64,000 nucleotides of DNA from positions 36,947 through 100,946 of the forward strand of contig NVUQ01000004.1 of NCBI GenBank assembly GCA_002401955.1, read 5' to 3'. Below, in pieces: positions 5,100 through 53,960 of the stretch (position 1 is the first letter of the stretch; each line of letters opens with the position of its first letter). The stretch comes from Flavobacteriales bacterium. GTDB taxonomy: Bacteria > Bacteroidota > Bacteroidia > Flavobacteriales_E > Vicingaceae. Position numbers and translations under genes: made by a program. Below the pieces are notes generated by a model. The model did not search any database. It saw nothing but the letters and a program-made list of their open reading frames with translations, and was not told the origin of the DNA.

Positions 5100-7166
5100 T
5101 TGACAAAAAGTAAGGTTAAAAATAGTGTAAATAATATCTTATTAAAAAATAAGTATTCTTTAGTATTAATAGTTGCCATTTTATTGTGTTTATGGCCACT
5201 TTCTTTTTTTGTATATATCCCAAAATGGGATAATATAAATGGATATTTACCTTACCGTTATTTTATTAGTGATTATTTATGGAATGGACATTTACCTTTA
5301 TGGAACCCATTTCAACGATTAGGTTATCCAGGCTATTCAGATTTACAGAGTGGTGTTTGGAGCCCTATAATGTGGGTAATAGTGCTTTTTGGAAAATACA
5401 CTATCAATTCATTAATAGTTGAATTACTTTCATGCTATGTACTTGCAGGCTTGGGAATGTTTAAGCTAGCAAATTATTTTTTTAATTGTAAAAAAACCAG
5501 TCTAATTTTAGGGTTGAGTTATGCTTTATCGGGTTTTATGGTTGGATCGGCACAGCTAATGGTTTTTTTAATAGCAGTAACTTGGTTCCCTTGGTGTATC
5601 TATGCCCTATTACAATTTTTTAAAACATACCGGTTAAAGTATCAATTACTTTCAGCATTATTTATGGCGTTGTTTATTACTGGAGCCAGTCCTGCTTATA
5701 CAATTATATTAGGATATATAGTAGTCGGAATTTTTATTTATCAGATTGTAATTCAGCGTAAAGACGTTGTTAATATTAAGAAAATACTAATTGGAGGAAT
5801 GTTAATTTTAATAGCATTAGTTATTTTAATAGCTCCTTATATAGTATCTTTTTTAGAGTTTATCCCTTATTTTAATAGGGGCGATAAATTAGAATATAGC
5901 GGGTTTTTATTATCGAACCCTTTTACTCCTGTGAGTTATATTTCTTTTTTATTTCCACATGCTGTTATTGCAAAATCTGATTGGTTTAACATTACAGATT
6001 TAAGTTTGAGAAATGGTTATTTTGGAATATTACTTTTAATAGGAGCTGTTGCTGCTTTAGGTTCAAGAATTACACGGTTAAAAATGATTCTAATAGTGTG
6101 TGTAATAATGTCGTTAATATTAGCAGCAGGCGATAAAACCTTTGTGTTTGAATTGCTTTATAACTTGCCAGGCTTCGGAATTTTTAGACACCCTTCAGTA
6201 TTTAGAGCGTTCACTATTTTTTGCTGTATATTACTTGCTGGTGGAGAATTAAAACAGGTAATAAATAATGGGGTAGAGCAGCGGCATAAAATTGCTTTTT
6301 CGGGAGTAATTGGATTGTTTTTCGTTGCTGGATTGTGGGCATTTACTAAAACCTCTTTTTCAGAAGTTAAAATGTTAATAGTTAATGCTTTTGATTTTGT
6401 AGAATTTTCAGAAAGTGCTCTATCTACTCATTTGTTGTTGAACACTATTATTACTATTAGTTTAGTAGGGTTGTTAATTGTGTCGAAGAGAGTTTTTAAG
6501 CTCTCTTGGTTTTTGAGTATGATAATTTTTATAGGGTTGGATTTAGGAATTCAAACTCAGTTAACAATTCCAACAACAGTGTGTTACAACTTTAAACAGA
6601 ATGATTTAACTCAATTCTTTAAAGAAATTCCTAACGAAATCAACCAAAAAGATAATTATACAGCTCTTAAAGAATTAAATGAGAAACAACCTCTAGTTAA
6701 AACAAATGGAATATGGCAAAATGTATCTACATTCAATAAAACACTTTCTTGCGTTGGAGTTAACCCAATGCGATTTAAAAGTTTTGATCAAGCTAAAGAA
6801 AATGGAAATTTGGCCCAATCTTTAGAGCGTAACATTATATATTTTATTGATTCTAATCTTGTATTAGACGATATTTTTGTTGGGTATAATAAGTTTTCAG
6901 CTAAAATTAATAAACCTAGTAATCAAAATCAAAAACTTGTTCTAAATCAAAATTATCATGATTTATGGAATGTTACTCTTAATGGAGAAAAAATTCCTAT
7001 CGCTAAGCATAATCAATTAACTATGGAGGTTGTTATTCCAAAAAATACTAGTGGAATAATTGAGTTTGAGTATAGGTCTTCTAAAATTATTTATGCTATA
7101 ATAATTAGCATTATGGGTTACTTTTTGTTTTTATCTTTAATTTTTAGCTTAAAATTAAAGAAATGA
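5100..7166 (+). CDS. YfhO-like polytopic membrane protein
   Basis: This 688-residue inner-membrane protein has many hydrophobic helices and a short C-terminal extracytoplasmic domain before a last helix. The N-terminal part (PYRYFISDYLWNGHLPLWNP) matches the GT-C-like layout of the YfhO family, whose Gram-positive members help glycosylate (lipo)teichoic acid from lipid-linked sugars. The upstream GT2 enzyme would be a natural source of such a donor; that is inference. The start is TTG at 5100, three bases after the upstream stop, and no in-frame ATG occurs until well inside the first conserved region. Its stop overlaps the next start (ATGA). Confidence 0.82.
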   Translation: MTKSKVKNSVNNILLKNKYSLVLIVAILLCLWPLSFFVYIPKWDNINGYLPYRYFISDYLWNGHLPLWNPFQRLGYPGYSDLQSGVWSPIMWVIVLFGKYTINSLIVELLSCYVLAGLGMFKLANYFFNCKKTSLILGLSYALSGFMVGSAQLMVFLIAVTWFPWCIYALLQFFKTYRLKYQLLSALFMALFITGASPAYTIILGYIVVGIFIYQIVIQRKDVVNIKKILIGGMLILIALVILIAPYIVSFLEFIPYFNRGDKLEYSGFLLSNPFTPVSYISFLFPHAVIAKSDWFNITDLSLRNGYFGILLLIGAVAALGSRITRLKMILIVCVIMSLILAAGDKTFVFELLYNLPGFGIFRHPSVFRAFTIFCCILLAGGELKQVINNGVEQRHKIAFSGVIGLFFVAGLWAFTKTSFSEVKMLIVNAFDFVEFSESALSTHLLLNTIITISLVGLLIVSKRVFKLSWFLSMIIFIGLDLGIQTQLTIPTTVCYNFKQNDLTQFFKEIPNEINQKDNYTALKELNEKQPLVKTNGIWQNVSTFNKTLSCVGVNPMRFKSFDQAKENGNLAQSLERNIIYFIDSNLVLDDIFVGYNKFSAKINKPSNQNQKLVLNQNYHDLWNVTLNGEKIPIAKHNQLTMEVVIPKNTSGIIEFEYRSSKIIYAIIISIMGYFLFLSLIFSLKLKK

Positions 7167-10596: not shown

Positions 10597-10774
10597 ATCG
10601 GTGGAAAATGAATTTTCCTTAGCCTGCTAATTTAATTCGAAAACCCCTAGGAGAGAGATGTTAATGGAATTAGATCAACAGGGCTAAAATTCTATGGAAA
10701 ACAGTAAGTACCTCTAAAATAATAAGTCGATATAAAATTAAATTATAAAGAGGAGAGCTAACCCCAATAATAAT

Positions 10775-10782
10775 TACTTTTG
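10775..10782 (+). promoter_or_regulatory. TAnnTTTG -7 box at the holB start (possible leaderless mRNA)
   Basis: TACTTTTG is a consensus -7 box only six bases before the ATG at 10789. A start site four to seven bases after the box would give a transcript beginning at or next to the start codon. Confidence 0.45.
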
Positions 10783-10788
10783 AAAGCG

Positions 10789-11940
10789 ATGCAATTTAAA
10801 AAGATCATAGGGCACCAAAATGTAAAAAAACGATTAATTAATTCAGTTAACGAAGGACGAATTAGTCACGCACAATTGTTTTTAGGACCAGAAGGGTGTG
10901 GTAATTTGCCTCTGGCAATTGCTTATGCCCAATATATTTCTTGTTTAGAAAAATCTGAAATGGATTCTTGTGGCGAATGTCAATCTTGCATTAAATATGA
11001 GAAATTGATACATCCAGATTTGCACTTTGTATTTCCTGTTGCATCAAGTGCTGAGGTAAAAGATAAGCCAACCAGCACTAAATATATTGCACAATGGCGC
11101 GAAGCAATTTTAGATGAGCCTTATTTATCTTTAGCTCATTGGCAAAATAGAATTGAAACGGGAAATAAACAACTTTTAATCTCTAAAAATGAAAGTGAGG
11201 ATATTCTAAAAATCTTAAGCCTTAAAACCTATGAATCGGAATATAAAGTGATGATTATTTGGTATCCAGAAAGGTTTAATATTGCCTCAGGAAATAAACT
11301 GTTAAAGATTATTGAGGAGCCACCAAATAAAACATTGTTTATATTGGTTGCACAGGATTCGGAACAAGTTTTAACCACTATTTTATCACGAACACAACTT
11401 GTTAAAGTTGGTAGAATTCAAGAAGAAGTTTTGCAGGCTGAATTGGTAAAAAAGTATAGTTTAGAAGCTTCAGTTGCACATAAAATAGCACACCAATCGG
11501 ATGGAAATTTTATTACAGCTCAAAAACTAATTGAACATTCGGCAACAGAAGAAGAATTCCATGATTTGTTTAAAGATTGGATGCGTTCTGCCTTTAAAGG
11601 CAATGTTGCAGGTTTAATTATTTGGTCAGAAAATATGGCAAATATTTCTTTTGGAAGAGAAAAACAAAAGCAATTTTTAAAATATTCTTTACATATTTTT
11701 AGAGAAAGTTTAATGAAGAATTATGGTGATGCTGAAATGGAAAGAGTTGCCAGTAATGAAGTGAAATTTTTATCCAATTTTTCACCTTACATTCATGGAG
11801 CAAATTGCATTGAAATTATTGAGTTGTTTAATGATGCCTCTTACCATATTGAAAGAAATGCCAACCCTAAAATTTTGTTTTTAGATGTTTCTTTAAAACT
11901 CACCAAACTATTGCGTGTTGAAGCTCCAGTTGGGACTTAA
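10789..11940 (+). CDS. holB: DNA polymerase III delta-prime subunit (clamp-loader AAA+ protein)
   Basis: It is part of the clamp loader that places the sliding clamp on DNA. The N-terminus QFKKIIGHQNVKKRLINS is typical. The P-loop is degenerate (GPEGCGNLP, with the catalytic lysine lost), which favours delta-prime over tau/gamma. A zinc module follows (C-x2-C-x2-C in CGECQSC plus an upstream Cys), then EEPPNKTLFIL and ILSRTQ at the sensor region. I prefer the ATG at 10789 to the TTG three codons earlier. That TTG overlaps a consensus -7 box, so transcription would start after it. The gene lies upstream of ricT, gldH and the PBP. Confidence 0.92.
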   Translation: MQFKKIIGHQNVKKRLINSVNEGRISHAQLFLGPEGCGNLPLAIAYAQYISCLEKSEMDSCGECQSCIKYEKLIHPDLHFVFPVASSAEVKDKPTSTKYIAQWREAILDEPYLSLAHWQNRIETGNKQLLISKNESEDILKILSLKTYESEYKVMIIWYPERFNIASGNKLLKIIEEPPNKTLFILVAQDSEQVLTTILSRTQLVKVGRIQEEVLQAELVKKYSLEASVAHKIAHQSDGNFITAQKLIEHSATEEEFHDLFKDWMRSAFKGNVAGLIIWSENMANISFGREKQKQFLKYSLHIFRESLMKNYGDAEMERVASNEVKFLSNFSPYIHGANCIEIIELFNDASYHIERNANPKILFLDVSLKLTKLLRVEAPVGT

Positions 11941-11995
11941 CAATTTATTCTTTAAAAATCATAAACATCAGTTAAAATTTAGCCTACAAATATGC

Positions 11996-12003
11996 TATAT
12001 TTG
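11996..12003 (+). promoter_or_regulatory. -7 box inside an inverted repeat upstream of ricT
   Basis: TATATTTG matches TAnnTTTG about 66 nt before the ricT ATG. It forms the right half of a perfect 8-bp inverted repeat (ACAAATAT, 3-nt gap, ATATTTGT; 11986-12004), which could be an operator. A second hairpin (AGTTTTTT/AAAAAACT, about 12031-12049) lies in the leader. Confidence 0.5.
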
Positions 12004-12068
12004 TGAGGAACAATAAGTTTAACGATTCGTAGTTTTTTAATAAAAAACTCACAATATATAGAATTTGA

Positions 12069-13340
12069 ATGGGATGTAGTGGATGTAGTACTGAGAGGGG
12101 TTGTGGAACATCATCGAAAGGGTGTAAAAGCAAAACTGGCAGTTGTAATAAATTAAATGTTTTTGATTGGCTAAAGGATATTGAATTGCCTCACGGTCAG
12201 AAAATGTTTGATTGTGTAGAAATTCGTTTTAAAAATAGCCGAAAAGAATTTTATAGAAACATAGATGAATTAAGCCTAAATATTGGTGATGTTGTTGCTG
12301 TAGAATCTTCTCCAGGCCATGATATGGGAACGGTTTCTTTAACAGGAGAATTGGTTAAAAAGCAAATGCGAAAACGTAAAGTTGCTTTTGATTCTGAAGA
12401 AGTAAAAAAGATTTATCGCCAAGCAAAAAAGACAGACATTGATAAGTGGATGGAAGCTCAATCTTTAGAGACTGACACCATGTACAAAGCAAGAACACTT
12501 GCAATTGATCTAGGCTTGCAAATGAAAATTAGCGATGTTGAATATCAAGGAGATAGATCTAAAGCAACTTTTTATTATACAGCCGAAGGACGAGTTGATT
12601 TTAGAGAATTGATAAAAAAATTAGCTGGAGAATTTAAGATAAGAATCGAGATGAAACAGATTGGTGTTCGTCAAGAAGCGAGTAGAATAGGAGGGATTGG
12701 CTCTTGTGGAAGAGAACTTTGTTGTTCTACTTGGTTAACTGATTTTAGATCCGTTTCAACCTCTGCTGCACGTTACCAACAGCTTTCTTTAAATCCACAA
12801 AAATTAGCAGGACAATGCGGTAAGTTAAAGTGTTGTTTGAATTATGAGTTGGATAGTTATGTTGATGCATTAAAAGATTTTCCGAACACTAACCTGAAAT
12901 TAAAAACGAAAAAAGGAAATGCATTTTACCGTAAAATGGACATTTTTAAAAATGTAATGTGGTATTCTTATCAAGATGAACCGTTAAAATTTATTGAGTT
13001 AAAACTCGATAGAGTTAATGAGATTGTTGAAATGAATAAACAAGAGGAGAAACCAAACGATTTAATGGATTTCGTTGTGTTGAAAGAGGTTGTGAAAGAA
13101 CCAGAATATGGTAATGTTGTTGGTCAGGATGATTTAACTCGTTTTGACAAACCTAAAGGAGGAAACAAGAAGAACAAAAACAAGAAACGTAAGTTTAGTA
13201 ATTCTAATAAACCGAATAATAGCGGGAATAAGCAAGGAGAAAAACCTAAAGGGTCTAAGTCAAACAATAACCCGAATAGAACCAGAAATAATAATAACAA
13301 AGGAAAAGGAAATAAACCTCAAGCAAAGAAGAATGATTAA
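12069..13340 (+). CDS. ricT: RicT/YaaT family PSP1-domain protein
   Basis: RicT belongs to a small Fe-S-containing complex that affects RNase Y-dependent mRNA processing in Bacillus; the role in Bacteroidota is less clear. The 423-residue protein has a cysteine-rich N-terminus (C3, C6, C12, C19, C26). The central PSP1 domain carries paired motifs SCGRELCCSTWL and GQCGKLKCCLNYE, probable cluster or metal ligands. The last 65 or so residues are a very basic Lys/Asn/Gly tail (KKNKNKKRKF ... RNNNNKGKGNK) that may bind RNA. Its end overlaps gldH by eight bases. This pairing with gldH is known in Bacteroidota. Confidence 0.9.
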   Translation: MGCSGCSTERGCGTSSKGCKSKTGSCNKLNVFDWLKDIELPHGQKMFDCVEIRFKNSRKEFYRNIDELSLNIGDVVAVESSPGHDMGTVSLTGELVKKQMRKRKVAFDSEEVKKIYRQAKKTDIDKWMEAQSLETDTMYKARTLAIDLGLQMKISDVEYQGDRSKATFYYTAEGRVDFRELIKKLAGEFKIRIEMKQIGVRQEASRIGGIGSCGRELCCSTWLTDFRSVSTSAARYQQLSLNPQKLAGQCGKLKCCLNYELDSYVDALKDFPNTNLKLKTKKGNAFYRKMDIFKNVMWYSYQDEPLKFIELKLDRVNEIVEMNKQEEKPNDLMDFVVLKEVVKEPEYGNVVGQDDLTRFDKPKGGNKKNKNKKRKFSNSNKPNNSGNKQGEKPKGSKSNNNPNRTRNNNNKGKGNKPQAKKND

Positions 13341-31879: not shown

Positions 31880-33394
31880 ATGATAAAAAATTTTTTTGCA
31901 ATCGCTTTTTTTACTTTTATCATAAGTAATTCTTTACGTGCTAATTCTAATATTATAAGTCAAGATACCACCCTGAATCAATTGCTTCGAAAATTAGAGG
32001 TGGTAAAAGATGATTCAATTAATATATACCTTTTAAATGAATTAGGATGGGTTTTAAGAAACTCAAAGCCTATTCTTGCAAAGGACTATGTTAATGAAGC
32101 TATAGTATTAAACCATTTGCACGGAATAGTTAGGTTTAAATCTCGATTATTAGACAGCTATAATACTTTAGGATTAATTAATAAACATCTTGGCGAATAT
32201 CATAATGCTATAAACAATTATCTAAAAGGACTAAGAATAGCAGAATCAAATAACGACTCTTTATCCCAAAGAACTATATTGAATAATATAGGTTATTTAT
32301 ATAATCAACAAACTAATATTGAAAAGACTAAAGAGTTTTGCATGAAAGCATTAAAATTAAGTATTAGTGCTAATGATACATTAAATATGATTAATTCATA
32401 TGAGACTTTAGGGATTTTATATAGCTCGAATAAAAAAACTTATAAGGATGGTATTTTATACTTTGAAAAATCTTTACACTTAGAAAGGCTAAGAAAAAAT
32501 ACGTGGGGGATTGGTGTAACTCTTTTTAATATCGCCTGTAACAAATTGGATAATGGATATTATGAGGGGTTGTTAGAAGATTTTGAAGAATGTTTACGAA
32601 TATTCAGAGAATTAAATGAAGATTATATTGTTGCAGCTTGTTTAGGGAATATTGGGTCTTTATATATAGAGTACTATAGAGATTATTCTCAAGCTATTTA
32701 TTATTTGAACAAAAGCCAAAAGCTTGCTGAGGAATCAAAATTTGTCGATTTACAAATTAATATTTATGATAACCTATTTAAGGCCTATAATAAAAATAAA
32801 GATTATAAAAATGCTATTAAATTTTTAGAACTAAAAATAAATTTAAGTGATACTGTTCTTAGTGAATCCAAGATTAGAATAATAACAGAATTAGAAACAA
32901 AATATCAAACTGAAAAAAAAGAGCAAGAACTACTTCTTCAACAAAAAGAAATAGAAGTATTAGAGAAAGATAAAAAGATTAAGGATTATACACTTTATGG
33001 AGTTTTGATAATTTTTATTCTTTTAATCTTTGCAGGATTTGGGTGGTTTAGAAATTACAAGAATAAAAGAATTGTTGAAGAAAATGCCATTAGATACCAG
33101 TTAGATTTATACATAAAAGAGATAGAATTATTAAAAAGCAGTAAAGGACCGAAGAATATACATGAAACCATCAAACAAAATTTAAACACTATTTTAGATG
33201 ATCCTTTATCAGAAAGGGAATTGGAAGTTTTTAATGAATTATCTAAAGGAAAAACAAATAAAGAAATGGGAGAAACTTTATTTGTTTCAGTAAATACGGT
33301 TAAAACTCATTTGAAGAGTATTTATGAGAAGCTTGATGTAAAAAACAGAACACAAGCAGTAAAAAAAGTCGATGAGCTAGAAAAAGTGGGCTAA
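31880..33394 (+). CDS. Transmembrane TPR regulator with C-terminal LuxR-type HTH
   Basis: This 504-residue one-component regulator has a signal peptide at the N-terminus (about 1-22). About six TPR units follow (about 30-330; for example NTLGLINKHLGEYHNAINNYLKGLR), then a coiled-coil stretch and one TM helix (about 373-392, YGVLIIFILLIFAGFGWF). A second coil leads to a GerE/LuxR HTH (about 442-500, LSERELEVFNELSKGKTNKE ... NTVKTHLKSIYEKL). So the TPR part is periplasmic and the DNA-binding part cytoplasmic. It has no phosphoreceiver domain. It is followed by a short gene duplicating its HTH and by a 16-bp palindrome that is a good candidate for its operator. Confidence 0.88.
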   Translation: MIKNFFAIAFFTFIISNSLRANSNIISQDTTLNQLLRKLEVVKDDSINIYLLNELGWVLRNSKPILAKDYVNEAIVLNHLHGIVRFKSRLLDSYNTLGLINKHLGEYHNAINNYLKGLRIAESNNDSLSQRTILNNIGYLYNQQTNIEKTKEFCMKALKLSISANDTLNMINSYETLGILYSSNKKTYKDGILYFEKSLHLERLRKNTWGIGVTLFNIACNKLDNGYYEGLLEDFEECLRIFRELNEDYIVAACLGNIGSLYIEYYRDYSQAIYYLNKSQKLAEESKFVDLQINIYDNLFKAYNKNKDYKNAIKFLELKINLSDTVLSESKIRIITELETKYQTEKKEQELLLQQKEIEVLEKDKKIKDYTLYGVLIIFILLIFAGFGWFRNYKNKRIVEENAIRYQLDLYIKEIELLKSSKGPKNIHETIKQNLNTILDDPLSERELEVFNELSKGKTNKEMGETLFVSVNTVKTHLKSIYEKLDVKNRTQAVKKVDELEKVG

Positions 33395-33425: not shown

Positions 33426-33441
33426 TCACCCATATGGGTGA
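33426..33441. promoter_or_regulatory. Palindromic operator, site 1
   Basis: TCACCCATATGGGTGA is a perfect 16-bp palindrome ending 22 nt before the TAGTTTTG -7 box at 33464. A sister site (TCACGGATATCCGTGA, 53945-53960) has the same arms, the same ATAT centre and the same 22-nt spacing to its own -7 box. Its centre would be near -42, a class II activator position. Confidence 0.7.
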
Positions 33442-33463
33442 GAGAGGAATAACCTGTGTCTAT

Positions 33464-33471
33464 TAGTTTTG
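33464..33471 (+). promoter_or_regulatory. TAnnTTTG -7 box for the small LuxR/LRR operon
   Basis: TAGTTTTG is an exact match to the Bacteroidota -7 consensus, 57 nt before the ATG at 33529. No TTG is seen at the usual -33 position; the palindrome 33426-33441 abuts that region, suggesting activator dependence. Confidence 0.6.
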
Positions 33472-33528: not shown

Positions 33529-33744
33529 ATGAATGAATGTTTTTCCCAAACTATCCCTAAAATCGTATCTTCAAAAAGATTAACAGAGAGAGAAAAGGAG
33601 ATCTATAAAGAATTATCAAAAGGGAAAACAAATAAAGAAATAGCAACAACGCTTTTTGTTTCAGTAAATACGGTTAAAACACATTTAAAAAGTATTTATA
33701 GAAAGCTCAATGTAAAAAATAGAACACAAGCAGTAAAAAGATAA
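33529..33744 (+). CDS. Small stand-alone LuxR-type HTH protein
   Basis: These 71 residues are almost entirely a GerE/LuxR HTH (LTEREKEIYKELSKGKTNKE, then NTVKTHLKSIYRKLNVKNRT). It is a near-copy of the C-terminus of the regulator at 31880-33394, and the DNA matches closely too, so it arose by local duplication. It has no sensor, receiver or membrane part. It is behind a palindrome/-7 box pair and is followed after 28 bases by the LRR T9SS gene. It could be a free DNA-binding competitor or activator that feeds back on the same sites, or a remnant that is still open. Confidence 0.75.
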   Translation: MNECFSQTIPKIVSSKRLTEREKEIYKELSKGKTNKEIATTLFVSVNTVKTHLKSIYRKLNVKNRTQAVKR

Positions 33745-33772: not shown

Positions 33773-35029
33773 ATGAAAACAAAAAAAATACTATTAGCAT
33801 TAACTTTTTCAATAACAGCAATTTTTTGTTCTGCTCAAACAACAGCAATTCCTGATCCTAATTTTGAACAAGCTTTAATTAACTTAGGATATGATTCTGG
33901 ACCACTTAATGGGTCTGTTTTAACCGCAAACATAAATACAGTTACATCACTTGCTCTAAATAATAATATTAGCAGTTTAACAGGCATAGAAGATTTTACT
34001 GCTCTTACGGTGCTAGGTTGTGGATGGAATCAACTAACAAATTTAGATGTGTCTCAGAATACGGCATTAACCATTTTAGAGTGTCAAAGTAATCAAATTA
34101 CAAACTTAAACCTTACGTCAAACACTTTACTAACCAGCTTGTCGTGTCGTGATAATGCTTTAAATAGTTTAAATATTACAAATTTAAATTCGCTAACTCA
34201 GGTATGGTGTGAAAATAATCAATTAACAAGTTTAAATATTTCTCAAAATTCATCTTTGGTAGATCTTGATATTTATAATAATTTATTGACAAATTTAATT
34301 ACAACTTCAACACCTACGCTAACGAAATTAGAGTGTCGGAAGAATCAGCTTACGTTTATTGATGTTAGCCAGAATACAGCCTTAACAATTTTGGATGTTG
34401 CAGAAAATCAAATCACTTCAACTATTGATGTCTCACAAAACATTAATTTACTTGAGTTCTATTGTCAAGATAATCAGCTAATTAACATAGATGTAACCAA
34501 TAACCCTTTACTTACAAATTTTGCTTGTTTTGGAAATCAAATAAATAGTTTAACCATTGCACAAAACCCTAATTTAATTGAGTTTGGGTGTCATAACAAT
34601 ATGTTAACCTGCTTAAATGCTAAAAATGGAAGCAACGCGTTAATAACAACTTTTGTATCTTCAGGAAATCCAAATTTAACATGCATTGAAGTAGATAATG
34701 TTGCTTGGTCTACAACAAATTGGACAAGTATTGATCCTGTTAGTAGTTTTAGTACGAGTTGTGTAAATCCATGTGCCGTAGGGGTTAAAGAGTATGGTAG
34801 TTCTGAGTTTTCATTATATCCCAACCCAACTACTGGAAGCATTACAATTAATGTGAAAGAGGATGGTGCTGTAGTTGAAATTTATGATATAATGGGTGAA
34901 ATAATTTTGTCTGAAAAAAATATAGCCGATCAATTAACAATTGATTTACAAGAACAACCAAAGGGAGTTTATTTTGTTAAAGTGAGTACTGAAAAAAAAG
35001 TGTCTAGTCAAAAAATTATTTATCAATAA
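33773..35029 (+). CDS. Secreted leucine-rich-repeat protein, T9SS type A
   Basis: This 418-residue protein has a signal peptide (LTFSITAIFCSAQ). Twelve or so 21-residue leucine-rich-like repeats follow (pattern LTxLxCxxNQLTxLDVSQN, residues about 40-310). It ends in a T9SS type A C-terminal domain beginning FSLYPNPTTGSITI and ending VSSQKIIYQ, which directs export and cell-surface attachment. Extracellular LRR proteins commonly bind proteins or glycans; the target here is unknown. It sits 28 bases after the small LuxR gene and probably belongs to the operon under the palindromic operator. Confidence 0.87.
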   Translation: MKTKKILLALTFSITAIFCSAQTTAIPDPNFEQALINLGYDSGPLNGSVLTANINTVTSLALNNNISSLTGIEDFTALTVLGCGWNQLTNLDVSQNTALTILECQSNQITNLNLTSNTLLTSLSCRDNALNSLNITNLNSLTQVWCENNQLTSLNISQNSSLVDLDIYNNLLTNLITTSTPTLTKLECRKNQLTFIDVSQNTALTILDVAENQITSTIDVSQNINLLEFYCQDNQLINIDVTNNPLLTNFACFGNQINSLTIAQNPNLIEFGCHNNMLTCLNAKNGSNALITTFVSSGNPNLTCIEVDNVAWSTTNWTSIDPVSSFSTSCVNPCAVGVKEYGSSEFSLYPNPTTGSITINVKEDGAVVEIYDIMGEIILSEKNIADQLTIDLQEQPKGVYFVKVSTEKKVSSQKIIYQ

Positions 35030-35044
35030 ATTAAAATAAAAGAG

Positions 35045-35881
35045 ATGAAAAAAATAGTATTAGGAATGTTAATGTTAGGGCTACTTTCAACAAGTTATGC
35101 TCAATATGGTGTGATAGTAGATTACAAGAAAGAAACATGGAAAGAATTAAAAAAGAAGACCCTCTATGTGGTTTATGATGATGAAGGAACCTCTACCTAT
35201 GATAAAGCTTTAAAAGAAGCAGTGACTTCGAATTGGAATTTTAATGAAGTAGAGTTTATTAATTATTCAAGTTATGAAGAAAAGCAGAAAGTTGAAACGA
35301 ACTTTTTTTTATTATCGGTAAACCAAACAGTGAGTGCAGCTGGGAGGTACAATGAGAGTTTAAGTTATATGTACATTATCCGAGGGTATAAAAAAGGAGC
35401 AAAAAAGGGAGATATAAGTCGTTTCCCACAATTAGCGGCAGTACAGTCGGGAAGTAACGATAGAGAAATTTACCTTCCCCTATTGATAAAACATCTTAAT
35501 AAAAGTATTGATGAGGTTGTGTCTGGTAAAATTACATCATTAGGTGCCAATACTAAGAAACTGAATGTAAATAAACGAAAAGTAAAAAGTAAGAGATTGT
35601 ATTTATTAGAATCTGATTTAAACGGTAAAATAAAAACAGAAGCAGACCTTAAGGAAGGTTATGTTGGTGAAGTATCAGTAATCTCTAAAGAAGAATTAGC
35701 TAATAAAATAAAAGCAGGAGAGGATGCTCATGTTTTTTTCTGTGCCAGATCATCAACAAAATCATATGTACACATATATAATGCAAAAACAGGAGAGGAA
35801 TATTATAACTCTTTTAATCTTGTATCAAAAAAATGGCCTGCAGGAATTATTCCGTATCATTTTAAAAAATGGAATAAATAA
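35045..35881 (+). CDS. Exported protein of unknown function
   Basis: This 278-residue protein has a signal peptide (MKKIVLGMLMLGLLSTSYAQ). The mature part has alternating basic helices and strands (TWKELKKKTLYVVYDDEGTS, HLNKSIDEVVSGKI, KRLYLLESDLNGKIKTEADL). I do not recognise a family. It lies 15 bases after the LRR protein gene on the same strand, so it is probably in the same operon. It has no T9SS C-terminal domain and no lipobox, so it is likely periplasmic. Confidence 0.72.
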   Translation: MKKIVLGMLMLGLLSTSYAQYGVIVDYKKETWKELKKKTLYVVYDDEGTSTYDKALKEAVTSNWNFNEVEFINYSSYEEKQKVETNFFLLSVNQTVSAAGRYNESLSYMYIIRGYKKGAKKGDISRFPQLAAVQSGSNDREIYLPLLIKHLNKSIDEVVSGKITSLGANTKKLNVNKRKVKSKRLYLLESDLNGKIKTEADLKEGYVGEVSVISKEELANKIKAGEDAHVFFCARSSTKSYVHIYNAKTGEEYYNSFNLVSKKWPAGIIPYHFKKWNK

Positions 35882-36015: not shown

Positions 36016-36693
36016 ATGAAAAAATATATACTTATTGTTTTTGCTGGATTAACAATTAGCGGGACTTCATTTGCTCAATGGAGCATAGCGCCTTCAGTCT
36101 CCTATCTTAATTTATTAGTTAAGGATGGATATGGTAATTTTGGTCTTACAATAAAGGCTGAAAAAAACATGCTTTATTTTGGGGTTGGTTATAACGCTAA
36201 AGTTAGTGGAACTAGAACTGTTTTAGCAGACACTATGGTTCTTGAACAAGGGCAAGCACAAGCCCTTTCAACGTATTCTATGAAATCATATAAACTGTTT
36301 TTAGGGGTGAAAAATTATTTTATTGGAGATTATGATAGTGATTTTGGTTTATATGGATTAGTTGATATTTCCTATTATTATCTTCCTATCACGAAAAAAT
36401 TAGATGGTCCTAAAGATTCTAAACGGTATTATCGCCATCTTCTTTTTGGAGAAAATAAAGAGTCTTATGACGACTTTGTAGAATCAGAAACATCTGAGGT
36501 GCTTCTTACAGGAGGGGTAGGATTAGGTTTAGAGAAAAAGATTAAAGGAGTTTATTTATACTCCGATGCAACAATTAAAATGACTATAACGGGACCAGAG
36601 GTACAACAAAATTCTGCAGCAGGTGAGGGTGGGACCTCTATGTTCTTTCCTTTAGAATTTAATTTAGGGATAAGAATTCCTTTGGACTATTAA
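36016..36693 (+). CDS. Outer-membrane beta-barrel-like protein
   Basis: This 225-residue protein has a signal peptide (IVFAGLTISGTSFAQ). Strands of barrel type follow (NFGLTIKAEKNMLYFGVGYN, YGLVDISYYYLPITKKL, GGVGLGLEKKIKGVYLYSD), ending in FPLEFNLGIRIPLDY. This looks like a small outer-membrane barrel. No specific family is recognised. It is 134 bases after the preceding exported protein and may be transcribed with it. Confidence 0.68.
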   Translation: MKKYILIVFAGLTISGTSFAQWSIAPSVSYLNLLVKDGYGNFGLTIKAEKNMLYFGVGYNAKVSGTRTVLADTMVLEQGQAQALSTYSMKSYKLFLGVKNYFIGDYDSDFGLYGLVDISYYYLPITKKLDGPKDSKRYYRHLLFGENKESYDDFVESETSEVLLTGGVGLGLEKKIKGVYLYSDATIKMTITGPEVQQNSAAGEGGTSMFFPLEFNLGIRIPLDY

Positions 36694-47902: not shown

Positions 47903-50900
47903 TTATCTAAGAATGCTAACCTTTCCAACTTTTTCGTGATTAAGACCATTAATATCTACAAAAACGACTTTCCAAACATAGGTGTCATTAGGAACCTTTT
48001 TTCCTTTATAAGTACCATTCCACCCGTCAACTGTGTTATGAGTTTCGTAGAGTAACTCTCCCCAACGGTCGAATATAAAGAAAGAGAAATCTTTGTTTGA
48101 TAGTCCAAATCCTTTAGGAAAGAAGTAATCATTAACCCCATTACCATCAGGACTAAATGCATTAGGAATAAATATCCCGAATTCACCCTTAACTGTTACT
48201 GTATTACTTGTATTTGCTTTACATCCATTTGCATCAGTAACTGTTAAATAAATTAAATAATTTCCAGTATCTGCAGGAAATTCATACACGGGGTTTTGTA
48301 GAATACTAGAGTCAAACCCAGCAATATCCCATGCATAATCAAAAGTGTAAGGTGATGTAAATGATGTAGATTGATCTGTAAAACTAATAGTAGGATCAAA
48401 CATAGATGCTGGATTAGGATTCATTGTAAAATCAGCTATTGGATTCTTATAAATTGTAATGAAATCTGGTTTCGTTAAATGGTTACTGCAATTCCCTACC
48501 GATGATATGGTTGTAATTGTAAGTGTCACATCATAAGCACCTGGGTGTGCAGGATAAGTAGTTGATGCAGAGTCCGCATTTGGTTCAGCATAATTAGATC
48601 CTAAACCAGTTGTTCCACCTATACTAAAATTCCAAGTTAAAGTACTATCTGTAGTTTGAGCTCCTAGTTGATTAAAAGTGAATACTTGATTATCGGTTTC
48701 ACAAGCATCTATATCGTCTACGCTAAAGTTAACTGCTGGCTTAGGGCTTATAATAATTGTAGCGGTTGCTGTATCTTGACAATTACCATTGCTTACTAAT
48801 GCGTAAAAAACCTGTCCGTTATTTGAAGCATAACCATTAACAGGAACAGCAGTGGTAGTTAGAGTGATGTCTGTATACCAAGTAACTGTATTTCCCATAC
48901 CTCCATTAACGCCATTATTGTATGCCGTAAAATCTACATTTGCTGCACCACCTCCTGCAGCATCTTCACAGAATTGGCCTGGTATTGTATCAATTGCAAT
49001 AGGTGTGCTATTAACGGAATAGGTAACATTCGTAACATTAGTACAATTACCATCATTAATTTCTACATAAAAAATTTGGCCGTTAGATACGCTTACGTTA
49101 TTGGGTGTTCCAACAGCAGAAGTTAGTGCCAAGTCATTAAACCAATTATATGTAGAACCAACACCGCCATTAATCGACATGTGTAATGCAGTAAGGTCAA
49201 CCCCTGAAGCTAGCCCTGAACCAGCAACATCTTCACAAAGAGGGGCAGGAGTTTGGATGTTGGCAACTGGCATCGAATTAACGGTGTAAGTAACTGTAGC
49301 TGTATCTGAACAAGTCCCGTCATCTATTAAGGCATAAAAAACCAATCCATTCGTTATTGTTAGGTTGCTAGGCGTAGCAACTGCGTTCGTAAGTGCTGCA
49401 TCTGTAAACCAACTAAAAGTTGCTCCACCACCACCATTCATGGCTCCTTCTAAAGCTGTTAAATCAATATTTGCAACGGTTCCTGTGCCAAAAGCATCCT
49501 CGCACAAAGCTGCAGGAGTTTGATCTATGGCGGTAGGTAAAGGTATAATAGTAAAGTTAACAGCTATAGAATTGTTACAATTTCCAGAAACCACGTCAAC
49601 AAAAAACTGATCTGATACACCAGTAACAATGGTAACATTAGTAGGGGTACCAACTAAGGATGTTAATCCTGCATCGGTATACCAAGTAAATGTTGCTGCT
49701 CCACCATAGACAGTTGTTTCTAATGAAGTTAAATTTATTCCAGCTACAGAATTGCTTCCAGCCACATCTTCACAAAATGAAAGGGCAGGGTCTGTAAGCG
49801 TAATGGTGGATGTTACATTATATGTAATAGTTGCAACATTGGTACAAGTTCCATCACTCACTTCAGCAAAGAATATTTGACCATTAGAAACAGTTACATT
49901 CGTTGGTGTTGGAATTGGTGTAAGGGTATTATCATACCATGTAACAGTATTTGTTGTTGCTCCATTTACTAATACATCAAGACTAGTTAAGTCCATTGCT
50001 GCTGCTACACCTGTTCCTAAAACATCTTCACATGTAGATGGATTTTGAGGATTAGCAACTGGTAGTGGATCAACTGTATAAGTAACTGTTGCTGTATCGC
50101 TACAAGTTCCGTTATCAATAAAGGTATAAAATACTAAACCATTAGAAACGGTAACATTATTTGGTGTTGATACTGATATTGTTAACGCGGCATCACTAAA
50201 CCAAGTGAAAGTTGATCCAGCACCACCATCAATAGCTGCCTCTAAAGTAGTAAGGTCAATTCCGGTTGCTGTTCCTCCCCCAAAAACATCTTCACAGATT
50301 GCTGCAGGTGTTTGGTCGTTTGCTGTTGGCATTGAGTTTACAGTAAAAGTAATGGTTACTGTATCTTGACAATTTCCATTATCTACTTGTGCATAAAAGA
50401 TCAACCCATTGGTAACAGAAACATTGGTTGAGGTAACTACTGGGTTTGTTAAATTAGCATCTGTAAACCAGTTTACAGTTAGTCCTAAACCGCCATCAAT
50501 AGCTGCATCCCAACTTGTAAGGTCAATTCCAGTAACTGTTCCTGTTCCACTAATTTCTTCACACATTGCTGTTGGTGTTTGAGCAACACCAACGGGTATT
50601 GGGTGCCAAGTAACTGGTGTTCCTTGAGCTACTGATAAACATGGATCGCTATAATCAACCCCTCCTGCTAAATCATCATTACCGGCAACAGATGATATGT
50701 AATACGTTGTTCCGTAACTTAATGGAGGATTGCTAAAATTAAAATTAGGTGTTGTATTGGTTGCATAAATTGTTCCTGCAGTTCCACCACTATTATCGTG
50801 TAGAATGAAAATAAAATTGTCGTTTGCATCTAAAGTACTATCAACATTATGTGTAGTAATAGCTTGATCATTTTCACATAATACTAAAGGGGTAAGGTTC

Positions 50901-53389
50901 ATTGTTCCTGCATCTGTAACACAGTTGCAAATATTTACACCACTTACATTGATAGGTCCACAGCCGTTGGCATCATCAATATCAAAATCATAAGCAACTC
51001 CACTGGCAATTAAATTACTAGTCCAATTATTTACTATCCAAGCACCTCCTATTCCTCCAGGCAAGTTTTCAGTTACTGTATATGGACCTCCATTTCCTCC
51101 ACTAACATCAAAAGAAATGGTGTAATCTGTAAATGTTGCATTACATTTCGCTAAAATATTAACTACAATAGGAGGGGTGTTTAATGTGATATTAGCATTA
51201 CCACTAACAGTTCCTGCACAATTTGTTACAGCATCTACTACAGAAATTAAGGTGTAATTTGTAGTAGCTGTTGGTGAAACATTAAATATATGTGGGTTTG
51301 TAACTCCATTTAGATTAAAATTGTTCGTTCCGTCAGAGTAAACAATATCAAATGGGCCACTTCCTGTAAAAGTAATTGTTAAGTCTGTATTTCCTCCATT
51401 ACAGATTGATGCCGTTCCAGAAATGGTTGCGGTTGGTTCTTCATTCCATACAACTGGAGTACCAGCAGCTACTGATAAGCATGGGTCGTTATAATCAATC
51501 CCGCCAGCAAAATCATCATCTCCTGCAACAGCAGAAATATAATATGTTGTTCCATAACTTAATGGAGGGTTAGAGAAGTTAAAACTAGGTGTTGTATTGG
51601 TCGCATAAATTGTTCCTAGGGTTGTACCAGCATTATCGTGTAATACGAAAATAAAATTGTCTGTAGCATCTAAAACACTATCATTATTATGGGTAGCAAC
51701 CGCTGCCACACTTTCACATAAACTCAATGGTGTAACAATCATGGTACCTGCATCTGTTGTACATCCACAAGATAAAGATCCAGTAATATTTACAGGTCCA
51801 CATCCACTAGCATCATCGATATCAAAATCATAAGGAACTCCACTAGCAATTAAATTACTGGTCCAAGTAGTTCCAGCCCATGACCCTCCAATTCCGCCTG
51901 GTAAATTTTCTGTAACGGTATAAGGTCCTCCTGTTCCACCAGAAACATCAAATGTTACAGTATATCCAGTAGAGCCTATACATATTGCAACTATATTGCT
52001 TACAACTGGTATTGGTGTAACGGTAATTGTTACATCATCAGTTGCTGTACAACCACTAGTTGCTTCTGTTAAAGTAGCTGTATAAGTAGTTGTTGCAGTT
52101 GGACACGCATTAGGGGTTTGAATGTTAGCATTGTTTAACCCTGTTGCTGGGGTCCAAGCATAGTTGTAAACAGGATTGGTAGTATAGGTTATGTTAAGAA
52201 TTCCGTTTAGTGTAATGTTGTCACTAAAGGCATCATTATCAATCGATTGTATTACTATTGAAGTAATTGGTAAAAATGGCGTTAGATCTAAAGCTACAAC
52301 ATTACATTGATTTGCAGATATCGTAGTTCCATTAACTATAATATTAATAGCAGACCAAGCCGTACAAAGTCCAGAAGTAGATGCATCTAAAGATATAGAT
52401 GTAATTGTAGCCCCACCAGGAACGCAAGGGAAAGCTCCATTCCATGTAATGTTTGTTGTTTGATCACTTCCATTAGCTGTCTCTACCTCATTACAAACAT
52501 TAGTTGGTGGGTTTAATAACGTAGCATTTAAATCTGTACAAACACCCGGACAAAAATTTGTATTAAGAGCTGTTGCATCAATTATAAGATCGTTTACCAC
52601 AACCGTAATTGAGGCATTACAAGCATTTGTTCCATCAGTATATACAACATCATAGGTTGTTGTTGTTAAAGGTGTTACTGTTTGGGTCATGTTGTCTGGA
52701 GCACCAGGGATATGAGTCCAATCGTACCAATAATTACAATCTGTTGGAAATATAGTCACATTATCAATCCCCCAATGGTCATTGGTCATTGCGGAGGCTT
52801 GTGGTTGGTCCCATTGAAACATCGTATTGAGAGACCAAGCTGCAGGAGGTATCGTGAAGCAAAAACTTTGCCAATTAGAATAAGGTCCAGTGCTAGTATT
52901 AGTGCCGTCTGGAGTGAAATAAAAGATATCTATCCATGGCCCTCCGGCACCTGTAGTTGAATATTGCAAAAAGACCCCTTCGTTTAATTGATCAGGGCTT
53001 TCGCAATCAGTAAAATTTTCCCCTCCAGCAAAATCTAAATCAAAACAAATTTGACCCCCACAACTCATATCAAATCCATTGGTTGTTAAAGTTCTTGGTA
53101 GCGGAACATTACCAAACCATGCTGAAGGAGTACCATCTAAAGAAGGTCCACAAGGATCAGTAAAAAGTACAGTTACAGAAGTTGCCCATCCTGCTCCAAT
53201 AGTATTTCCGTTAAAATTAGTTGATAATGCTGGTGTTGCTGACAAGCCTAAGGCAGTTAAATCGACACTTTCACCACAATCAATGGTAATAGGATCTGGA
53301 GATATGGTAACAGTACATTGAGAATGTGCGTTAAAACTAACAGCTATTAAGCTAATTGTAACTGCTAAATATTTTAAAATAGTTTTCAT
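47903..53389 (-). CDS. Giant secreted T9SS type B adhesin with repeats
   Basis: This 1828-residue surface protein has a signal peptide (YLAVTISLIAVSFNAHSQ) and a beta-rich N-terminal domain with many cysteines. Two near-identical blocks follow (SGGTGGPYTVTENLPGGIGG and its later copy). Next come seven copies of an about 85-residue module centred on CEDVxGxGxAxGIDLTxLxxxxxGG and FYxxxDNGxCxDTxTVTYTV (nucleotides about 48745-50595). Then come two PKD-like domains and a gliding-type (type B) sorting domain (FSPDGNGVNDYFFPKGFGLS ... FDRWGELLYETHNT). It lies 21 bases after the gene at 53411, whose promoter carries a palindromic operator. Confidence 0.9.
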   Translation of the reverse strand: MKTILKYLAVTISLIAVSFNAHSQCTVTISPDPITIDCGESVDLTALGLSATPALSTNFNGNTIGAGWATSVTVLFTDPCGPSLDGTPSAWFGNVPLPRTLTTNGFDMSCGGQICFDLDFAGGENFTDCESPDQLNEGVFLQYSTTGAGGPWIDIFYFTPDGTNTSTGPYSNWQSFCFTIPPAAWSLNTMFQWDQPQASAMTNDHWGIDNVTIFPTDCNYWYDWTHIPGAPDNMTQTVTPLTTTTYDVVYTDGTNACNASITVVVNDLIIDATALNTNFCPGVCTDLNATLLNPPTNVCNEVETANGSDQTTNITWNGAFPCVPGGATITSISLDASTSGLCTAWSAINIIVNGTTISANQCNVVALDLTPFLPITSIVIQSIDNDAFSDNITLNGILNITYTTNPVYNYAWTPATGLNNANIQTPNACPTATTTYTATLTEATSGCTATDDVTITVTPIPVVSNIVAICIGSTGYTVTFDVSGGTGGPYTVTENLPGGIGGSWAGTTWTSNLIASGVPYDFDIDDASGCGPVNITGSLSCGCTTDAGTMIVTPLSLCESVAAVATHNNDSVLDATDNFIFVLHDNAGTTLGTIYATNTTPSFNFSNPPLSYGTTYYISAVAGDDDFAGGIDYNDPCLSVAAGTPVVWNEEPTATISGTASICNGGNTDLTITFTGSGPFDIVYSDGTNNFNLNGVTNPHIFNVSPTATTNYTLISVVDAVTNCAGTVSGNANITLNTPPIVVNILAKCNATFTDYTISFDVSGGNGGPYTVTENLPGGIGGAWIVNNWTSNLIASGVAYDFDIDDANGCGPINVSGVNICNCVTDAGTMNLTPLVLCENDQAITTHNVDSTLDANDNFIFILHDNSGGTAGTIYATNTTPNFNFSNPPLSYGTTYYISSVAGNDDLAGGVDYSDPCLSVAQGTPVTWHPIPVGVAQTPTAMCEEISGTGTVTGIDLTSWDAAIDGGLGLTVNWFTDANLTNPVVTSTNVSVTNGLIFYAQVDNGNCQDTVTITFTVNSMPTANDQTPAAICEDVFGGGTATGIDLTTLEAAIDGGAGSTFTWFSDAALTISVSTPNNVTVSNGLVFYTFIDNGTCSDTATVTYTVDPLPVANPQNPSTCEDVLGTGVAAAMDLTSLDVLVNGATTNTVTWYDNTLTPIPTPTNVTVSNGQIFFAEVSDGTCTNVATITYNVTSTITLTDPALSFCEDVAGSNSVAGINLTSLETTVYGGAATFTWYTDAGLTSLVGTPTNVTIVTGVSDQFFVDVVSGNCNNSIAVNFTIIPLPTAIDQTPAALCEDAFGTGTVANIDLTALEGAMNGGGGATFSWFTDAALTNAVATPSNLTITNGLVFYALIDDGTCSDTATVTYTVNSMPVANIQTPAPLCEDVAGSGLASGVDLTALHMSINGGVGSTYNWFNDLALTSAVGTPNNVSVSNGQIFYVEINDGNCTNVTNVTYSVNSTPIAIDTIPGQFCEDAAGGGAANVDFTAYNNGVNGGMGNTVTWYTDITLTTTAVPVNGYASNNGQVFYALVSNGNCQDTATATIIISPKPAVNFSVDDIDACETDNQVFTFNQLGAQTTDSTLTWNFSIGGTTGLGSNYAEPNADSASTTYPAHPGAYDVTLTITTISSVGNCSNHLTKPDFITIYKNPIADFTMNPNPASMFDPTISFTDQSTSFTSPYTFDYAWDIAGFDSSILQNPVYEFPADTGNYLIYLTVTDANGCKANTSNTVTVKGEFGIFIPNAFSPDGNGVNDYFFPKGFGLSNKDFSFFIFDRWGELLYETHNTVDGWNGTYKGKKVPNDTYVWKVVFVDINGLNHEKVGKVSILR
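48745..50595 (-). repeat. Seven tandem modules of about 85 residues in the adhesin
   Basis: Seven modules each contain a CEDxxGxG start and a D-N-G-x-C-x-D-T/N end. They differ from one another by many residues but keep this frame. A domain of this kind is common in long Bacteroidota surface proteins. Positions are approximate because the first and last borders are drawn by eye. Confidence 0.75.
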
Positions 53390-53410: not shown

Positions 53411-53863
53411 TTAAAGGATCTCTTTAGTAAGGTTTCTGAATTTAAAATCAGTTAAATGTTTTTTTGACATTCCAGGAGAAAGTTTTATAAAATTAGAAAA
53501 GATGTATCTTTCCTTATATTCTTTAGTTGTACAATCACCTTCTATTGTTTGATTTGGTTCTAAGATTATAGTCATTGTATTTTCAAGTGAATTTACTTGA
53601 TGACAGTTACTACAAACATTACTTACCCATCTTTCTTCATTCCAAACAAGTTGAACTTTATTACTAGTTGTATTGGTAAATTTAAAAAGTGCCAATACCT
53701 GATTATTGATATTTGCTGTGTTACAAGGAGCATACTTATATTCAATTTTAACTCCTTCGTGAGTTAAATAATCGGTCCATGTTTTGTTAGGTTGTACTTG
53801 AGAAAATCCAGATTGGAGAATTAATAACAATAGTATCGAAGTAATAAATTTTAGTTTTTTCAT
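53411..53863 (-). CDS. Exported protein of unknown function, partner of the giant adhesin
   Basis: This 150-residue protein has a signal peptide (ITSILLLLILQSGFSQ). The mature part has strands and four cysteines (C48, a CSNC pair, and one in GDCTTK), ending in a basic segment (KKHLTDFKFRNLTKEIL). It has no lipobox or T9SS domain, so it is probably periplasmic. I do not recognise a family. It is the first gene of the operon with the 1828-residue adhesin (21-base gap) and lies directly behind the -7 box and palindrome at 53915-53960. Co-regulation with the LRR protein operon at 33.5 kb is inferred from that palindrome. Confidence 0.72.
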   Translation of the reverse strand: MKKLKFITSILLLLILQSGFSQVQPNKTWTDYLTHEGVKIEYKYAPCNTANINNQVLALFKFTNTTSNKVQLVWNEERWVSNVCSNCHQVNSLENTMTIILEPNQTIEGDCTTKEYKERYIFSNFIKLSPGMSKKHLTDFKFRNLTKEIL

Positions 53864-53944: not shown

Positions 53945-53960
53945 TCACGGATATCCGTGA
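53945..53960. promoter_or_regulatory. Palindromic operator, site 2
   Basis: TCACGGATATCCGTGA is a perfect 16-bp palindrome with the same TCAC/GTGA arms and ATAT centre as 33426-33441. It is 22 nt from its own TAnnTTTG box, exactly as in site 1. Confidence 0.7.

Follow-up and report, generated by a model that had tools for sequence, protein, structure and literature searches.

The window analysed here, a 64-kb stretch of DNA, raises the question of what a perfect palindrome is doing between the gene for a predicted membrane regulator and an operon for surface proteins. The 16-bp palindrome that an initial annotation had placed at 33426–33441 is present there with the sequence TCACCCATATGGGTGA, as is a second at 53945–53960 (TCACGGATATCCGTGA), and these are the sole two exact matches to TCACNNATATNNGTGA within the window. 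The two differ in their inner bases and have the same arms, the same ATAT centre and the same distance to a promoter box: reading the sequence confirms that 22 nt separate the first from TAGTTTTG (33464–33471, + strand) and the second from TACATTTG (53922–53915, − strand). Both boxes are exact matches to TAnnTTTG, the −7 box of the Bacteroidota sigma-A promoter. Neither spacer has a TTG near −33, as had also been claimed; the first (33442–33463, + strand) contains none at all, and the second contains one, merely 13 nt ahead of its box.

The first palindrome and its neighbours

The gene just upstream of the first site (31880–33394, + strand) encodes a regulator of 504 amino acids with a predicted signal peptide, a TPR solenoid, one membrane helix, a coiled coil and a C-terminal GerE/LuxR HTH. 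Its matches to GerE (66.7 bits, cut-off 23.5) and TPR_12 exceed the Pfam cut-offs, and Pfam gives TPR and GerE alone, the autoinducer-binding domain of the LuxR quorum regulators being absent. The hydropathy peak is 2.5, and a structure model (mean pLDDT 84) has TPR helices up to residue 305, a helix at 309–420 that includes the predicted membrane segment, and HTH helices up to residue 503. Judged from hydropathy and this model, the protein is predicted to have the SusR-like layout of a membrane protein with an outer sensor and a C-terminal HTH; the SusR family is not among the best 25 of the 32 NCBIfam families for it.

Behind the palindrome, on the + strand, the operon begins with an HTH-only protein of 71 amino acids (33529–33744; GerE, Pfam 4.3e-21, 74.7 bits, cut-off 23.5). 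This protein is identical to the HTH of 31880 in 46 of 70 aligned residues, the recognition-helix stretch being identical, and 13 of the 46 codons for identical residues differ silently. Next come an LRR surface protein with a Por_Secre_tail (33773–35029; Pfam), a 278-aa secreted-type protein with no Pfam family (35045–35881) and a 225-aa protein (36016–36693). The small LuxR gene and the LRR protein gene, which had been taken to be controlled from this site, are the first operon genes behind it, in support of that view.

According to PMC9723704, the sigma-A box TAnnTTTG of Flavobacterium psychrophilum lies at −12 to −5. With a 22-nt gap, the palindrome would thus span −50 to −35 with its centre at −42.5, so that the spacing to the box supports the earlier placement near −42, the class II position; PMC7585371 describes the lux box as 42.5 nt upstream of the start. 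Reading the locus from its sequence, we consider it probable that the adjacent TPR-GerE regulator, 31880, binds 33426 as the class II operator (centre about −42.5) of a promoter that depends on an activator, and that this switches on the surface-protein operon. The predicted membrane-spanning regulator would bind the palindrome and aid RNA polymerase at TAGTTTTG, 22 nt away, and this help would turn the operon on; in the class II position a dimeric HTH could touch the polymerase. The TPR part would sense a signal in the periplasm, and the cytoplasmic HTH would act from the membrane. The 71-aa protein may bind the same operator as a feedback factor, with damping the more likely form of feedback because the protein has no sensor part.

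The palindrome lies 31 nt past the stop codon of the regulator gene, where a terminator of that gene might be expected, yet it has no loop and no T-run, it has no Rfam match, and such sites occur in divergent regions too. Reversed controls and shuffles gave counts near zero, which argues against coincidence. Hence a terminator, a mobile repeat or chance is an extremely improbable account of the site.

A fixed gap in a family of modules

A genome-wide search for the palindrome, which the initial annotation had proposed as a check, returned three exact copies of TCACNNATATNNGTGA in the organism's own genome (4.19 Mb, 83% complete) against none for the reversed control, and 21 against 6 when one mismatch was allowed. 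The third exact copy (G000:C97:45961, L001) is followed on its minus strand after 22 nt by GATATTTG, with one box mismatch, and by an ORF of 81 amino acids, so that all three copies found have the same arrangement of palindrome, 22 nt and box. A palindrome scan around exact and near-matching sites brought up similar palindromes, often paired and mostly 50–130 nt before large genes, most of which encode T9SS cargo (Por_Secre_tail or CHU_C, Pfam). Regulator genes stand beside several of them: TPR-HTH_24 at L060, TPR-GerE at L061 (GerE at 23.0 bits, slightly under the Pfam cut-off of 23.5) and LamG-HTH_24 at L064, the HTH_24-type paralogues being matched by models other than GerE. The genus was searched with the L064 regulator, further regulators were collected by protein similarity, and the regions behind them were examined; many of the regulators fetched by similarity have palindromes and a T9SS gene behind them on the same strand. 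Operator words vary by module (TCAACC, TCATACC, TCACTGAT, TCACGG and others).

The 22-nt rule was tested on 30 predicted membrane regulators with a TPR sensor, one membrane helix and a C-terminal LuxR-like HTH; entry required a hydropathy peak and a same-strand gene at most 700 nt downstream, and 14 other regulators were skipped. In 15 of the 30 modules a TCA-N10-TGA lies at gap 22 from a box that has no more than one mismatch, against a mean of 0.15 and a maximum of 1 over the other 40 gaps (5 to 45); for an exact box the count is 8 of 30, against 0 at every other gap. Seven of the 30 regulators came from loci fetched by motif; in the similarity-only subset the rule holds in 11 of 23 (at most one mismatch) and 6 of 23 (exact), with means of 0.125 and 0 at other gaps. 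Dinucleotide shuffles of the 30 regions average 0.05 and, for the exact box, 0.003. Twelve loci fetched for TPR proteins, one of which (L155) also contains a soluble GerE gene, gave 96 upstream regions, none of them with the arrangement. A wider count took TCA-N10-TGA with at least 5 of 8 pairs and an exact box in the 350 nt upstream of 513 ORFs of the fetched loci, some of them fetched via the motif: seven cases lie at gap 22 and none at gaps 18–21 or 23–26, and shuffles average 0.05 at gap 22. With more permissive limits (arms 5 of 6 or better, four or more pairs, at most 2 box mismatches), gap 22 is found in 21 of the 30 modules. The next gene encodes T9SS cargo in 20 of 30 modules, compared with 31 of 202 other ORFs of the same loci. 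With HTH24 regulators present in 11 of 247 genomes, this branch is of limited spread in the sample; the HTH24 regulators outside the window's family belong to G059 (two), G093, G129 and G208, and all four that have a same-strand gene fit the rule, the fifth (G059:C275) facing a convergent gene. A gap-22 operator upstream of the regulator itself, as autoregulation would have it, occurs in 1 of 40 cases, with a two-mismatch box (L252).

These counts bear on whether the bound protein activates or represses. A palindrome over −50 to −35 could hinder polymerase, and position alone does not prove activation, so the site might be that of a repressor which blocks the promoter until a signal frees it. 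Contact with polymerase nevertheless better accounts for a 22-nt gap that is strict and a spacer whose sequence is free; in a line-up of four modules the operator, the gap length and the box are alike and the spacer sequence is not. Several boxes are off consensus, as expected of activator-dependent promoters, and none of the 21 modules has a TTG at 15–20 nt before the box, although about two would be expected by chance (an estimate). For that last reason we dropped the missing −33 TTG as proof of activator dependence. Repression seems improbable, and activation by the adjacent regulator is the reading we prefer.

Several features of the modules are worth recording in their own right. Six modules keep the 22-nt gap and have another base in place of the first T in the −7 box: L100 (GAATTTTG), L172 (GATATTTG), L173 (CAGTTTTG), L137 (CATATTTG), L217 (GAATTTTG) and L219 (GACTTTTG). 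Behind the regulator at 1885–2544 (− strand) of L127 (G000:C75) lie two copies of the 15-bp palindrome TCACCCCAGAGGTGA, the second of which ends 22 nt before an exact TAATTTTG; being odd-centred, it was scored as a miss by the 16-bp count. By a loose criterion, 12 of the 21 modules have a second palindrome match, at a spacing of 26–28 or 37–38. Two of these matches are weak and AT-rich, the window's among them; we treat the window site as single. Second palindromes stand 26–28 or 37–38 nt upstream of the first in L060, L061, L100, L130, L131, L132, L133, L142, L145 and L173; the two spacing classes are about one helical turn apart. Tandem palindromes were rejected as a defining feature: the pattern occurs in 19 of 120 genomes, most matches outside the genus resemble chance, and reversed-control matches occur in five genomes.

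Not every site adjoins a regulator gene, and not every regulator has a site. Tandem palindromes precede T9SS genes with no regulator gene in front at L065:3131–3183, L062:7930–7982 and L060:5717–5760, and these are likely trans targets of regulators encoded elsewhere. In L066 the same word, TCACGTGTAAACGTGA, occurs at 5253–5268 and 10783–10798, 71–80 nt before two genes 5.5 kb apart, one of which encodes a 1695-aa PKD-CHU_C protein. The TCA palindrome is absent behind four GerE-type TPR regulators of the genus (L061:8577–10391, − strand; L099:4234–5850, + strand; L135:4646–6331 and 10703–12541, both − strand). GTC[ACGT]CCC-type repeats are found there instead, a short way ahead of an AT-rich stretch resembling TATAAATTTT and of a T9SS gene, and are perhaps a second class of operator.

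Other searches were less informative. The exact palindrome was rejected as a family-wide motif, TCACSSATATSSGTGA being present in 2 of 60 genomes, the organism's own included; its rarity reflects the variation of operator words between modules. The bare signature (TCAY-N8-RTGA, 22 nt, TAnnTTTG) is a weak genome-wide detector, with 24 matches in 16 of 60 genomes, 10 of them inside ORFs, against 7 reversed-control matches. A search of genome contigs for related loci gave three distant matches, in the HTH region alone, and solved structures, searched by sequence with the HTH24 alignment, yielded weak matches alone (best E 0.011). The idea that a sensor reads its own cargo through a shared LamG domain is unsupported, the C97 sensor and its cargo having no significant similarity (E 0.21).

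Operator words and the regulators beside them

The earlier proposal that the TPR-LuxR gene just upstream encodes the likely regulator of 33426 gains support from G016, of another genus in the same family, in which the module of regulator, TCACCC operator, gap, box and operon is kept. Behind the G016 regulator, which is 36% identical to 31880 over 470 aligned positions, come TCACCCATTCGGGTGA, a 22-nt gap, TAGTTTTG and an operon. The third gene of this operon encodes a protein 70% identical to that of window gene 36016–36693; the 278-aa protein has a weak homologue there (46% over 52 aa). An HTH-only duplicate like 33529–33744, which is first in the window operon, is absent from the G016 operon. 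In G009, of the window's genus, TCACCTATATGGGTGA lies at gap 22 from a two-mismatch box, and in the GerE modules of G007 and G004 the gap is again 22 nt and the words are different ones (TCATCAATTTTGATGA and TCATCATTTATGATGA); a second GerE regulator in G007 has no same-strand gene behind it.

Seven further distant loci, chosen by protein similarity, served as a blind test for which the 22-nt rule was predicted beforehand. G231 fits exactly (TCACCCAAACGGGTGA and TAGGTTTG). The prediction failed for both regulators of G342:C21, one of which has a palindrome, TCATCCAAATGGATGA, that is not at gap 22 from a box, and for G226 and G362. G342:C290 has no same-strand gene behind its regulator, and TCACCCACATGGGTGA lies 22 nt before TATTTTAG on the strand of a divergent T9SS gene. 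G299 has no same-strand gene either; there TCACCTATATAGGTGA, with a two-mismatch box, lies on the upstream side of the regulator. G297 gave no HTH match. In total, one of five testable downstream regions fits and four do not, plus one divergent case.

Five regulators, from five genomes, four genera and three families (the window, G016, G009, G231 and G342:C290), combine the word TCACC[CT] with the helix type NT[VI]K[TS]H, a type that was set after the operators had been seen. A near variant with R for K, in G342:C21, goes with TCATCC, which is not at gap 22. Over all 21 modules, HTH identity falls with inner-operator distance (rho −0.22, p 0.021), as it does within HTH24 (n=15, rho −0.29, p 0.006) and GerE (n=6, rho −0.67, p 0.008). 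The trend supports the view that HTH and operator change together, each regulator being paired with its own operator; for pairs below 50% identity it is not significant (rho −0.15, p 0.07), and common descent therefore explains part of it.

A search in the reverse direction, from operator to neighbour, is informative about which protein binds. Across 395 genomes of the class, TCACCY-N4-RGGTGA, 22 nt and TAnnTTTG gave 12 matches, spread over 9 genomes, and one reversed-control match. Four of the 12 (the window, G016, G231 and G294) stand directly behind a GerE-type gene, two lie inside an ORF, and the remainder adjoin other neighbours. Four such sites occur in G355, of another family (L262, L264, L265 and L266), none directly behind a GerE gene. 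Since TCACC-type sites exist away from regulators, trans targets or other binders must be allowed. One could accordingly suppose that a different factor, such as a soluble LuxR-type response regulator, binds 33426 and that the membrane regulator is a bystander: eight of the 12 sites are not directly behind a GerE gene, and the GerE gene found at the G294 site is a 203-aa ORF, not a TPR protein. Yet regulator and site are neighbours again in modules that were collected purely by regulator similarity (11 of 23), in further families (4 of 4) and, with the gene order inverted, in G342, and the operator word tracks the HTH of the regulator. We therefore doubt that the neighbour is a bystander and continue to favour 31880 as the protein that binds 33426. 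For that operator reading we count the palindrome, the fixed 22-nt gap across differing words, the adjacency of the regulator, the T9SS cargo in 20 of 30 modules and the retention of TCACC[CT] with the helix type; against it we count the blind test (1 of 5), the 4 of 12 TCACC-type sites behind a GerE gene and the four regulators of the genus that lack the palindrome.

The second window site has no adjoining regulator gene. Behind it, on the − strand, lie the genes for a 150-aa protein with no Pfam or NCBIfam match (53411–53863) and for a surface protein of 1828 amino acids with a Reelin subrepeat and a CHU_C sorting domain (47903–53389; Pfam); like the LRR protein at 33773, the latter qualifies as T9SS cargo by its C-terminal Por_Secre_tail or CHU_C domain. 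The initial annotation had joined 33426 and 53945 into a single regulon, and one regulator, be it 31880 or the 71-aa protein, might bind both if it tolerated different inner bases: the arms, the ATAT centre and the gap are shared, and no regulator adjoins 53945. This joint regulon is not supported, however. The word beside all five regulators of this helix type is TCACC[CT], never TCACGG. Site 53945 carries TCACGG and resembles sites found on C42 and at the module of a different, LamG-HTH regulator on C97. A single two-operon regulon is accordingly unlikely, and 53945 more likely belongs to the same promoter family as 33426 and is read by another, paralogous regulator. Of the circuit originally proposed, the operator, the gap, the adjacent gene as the likely regulator and the operon are supported; the joint regulon is not. 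The two window sites are two of many such operators, in which the gap is constant at 22 nt and the word changes from module to module.

Relation to known systems and significance

It is useful to compare these modules with regulators of known kinds. They share with LuxR and the lux box a LuxR-type HTH and a palindrome centred, by the position inferred here, 42.5 nt upstream of the start (PMC7585371). LuxR is soluble, belongs to the quorum regulators and has an acyl-homoserine-lactone domain, and its box is 20 nt long, whereas the operator here has 16 bp and its regulator combines a predicted membrane helix with a TPR or LamG sensor. The SusR-like regulators of Bacteroides, as described in PMC3878776, are likewise membrane proteins with a periplasmic sensor, a cytoplasmic C-terminal HTH and local targets, and their motif similarity tracks protein similarity. 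According to the same source, however, the SusR motifs consist of direct repeats whose centres lie 67 or 77 bp apart, and their targets are genes for glycan use. The palindromes seen here have 16 bp and a constant distance of 22 nt to the box, second copies, where there are any, are at 26–28 or 37–38, and the targets are mostly T9SS cargo. The L060 regulator is the only one with an NCBIfam SusR match, at 35 bits against a cut-off of 480.

GerE, CsgD, VpsT and NarL-type proteins have the HTH that the 71-aa protein matches, and GerE itself is, like that protein, HTH-only, with 74 amino acids; the NCBIfam CsgD and EpsA models match below cut-off. A TPR membrane sensor encoded next to T9SS cargo is not found among these proteins. 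PorX/SigP, too, links transcription with type IX secretion, although it does so by two-component and sigma-factor control of the secretion machine and is not known to provide one sensor per cargo gene. We found no description of the present system in the open-licence PMC literature: SusR-like membrane regulators and lux-box activators are known kinds, and their combination was not found in print there.

To our knowledge, little is understood of how Bacteroidota choose among their many T9SS surface proteins. We tentatively suggest, as a possibility rather than an expectation, that this bacterial class carries surface-protein cassettes, each made of one membrane sensor-activator, one secreted surface protein and one private palindromic operator 22 bp from a −7 box. 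After duplication, HTH and operator would diverge together and so prevent cross-talk between cassettes, and the cell could then pick its surface proteins singly through direct, kinase-free sensing across the inner membrane. With regulator, operator and target side by side, about twenty predicted regulator–operator pairs are testable at once, and the 22-nt rule offers a simple signature for finding further modules. Because HTH and operator diverge jointly, the modules supply natural variants from which a DNA-recognition code of LuxR-type proteins could be worked out, and they might also find use as independent switches in Bacteroidota.
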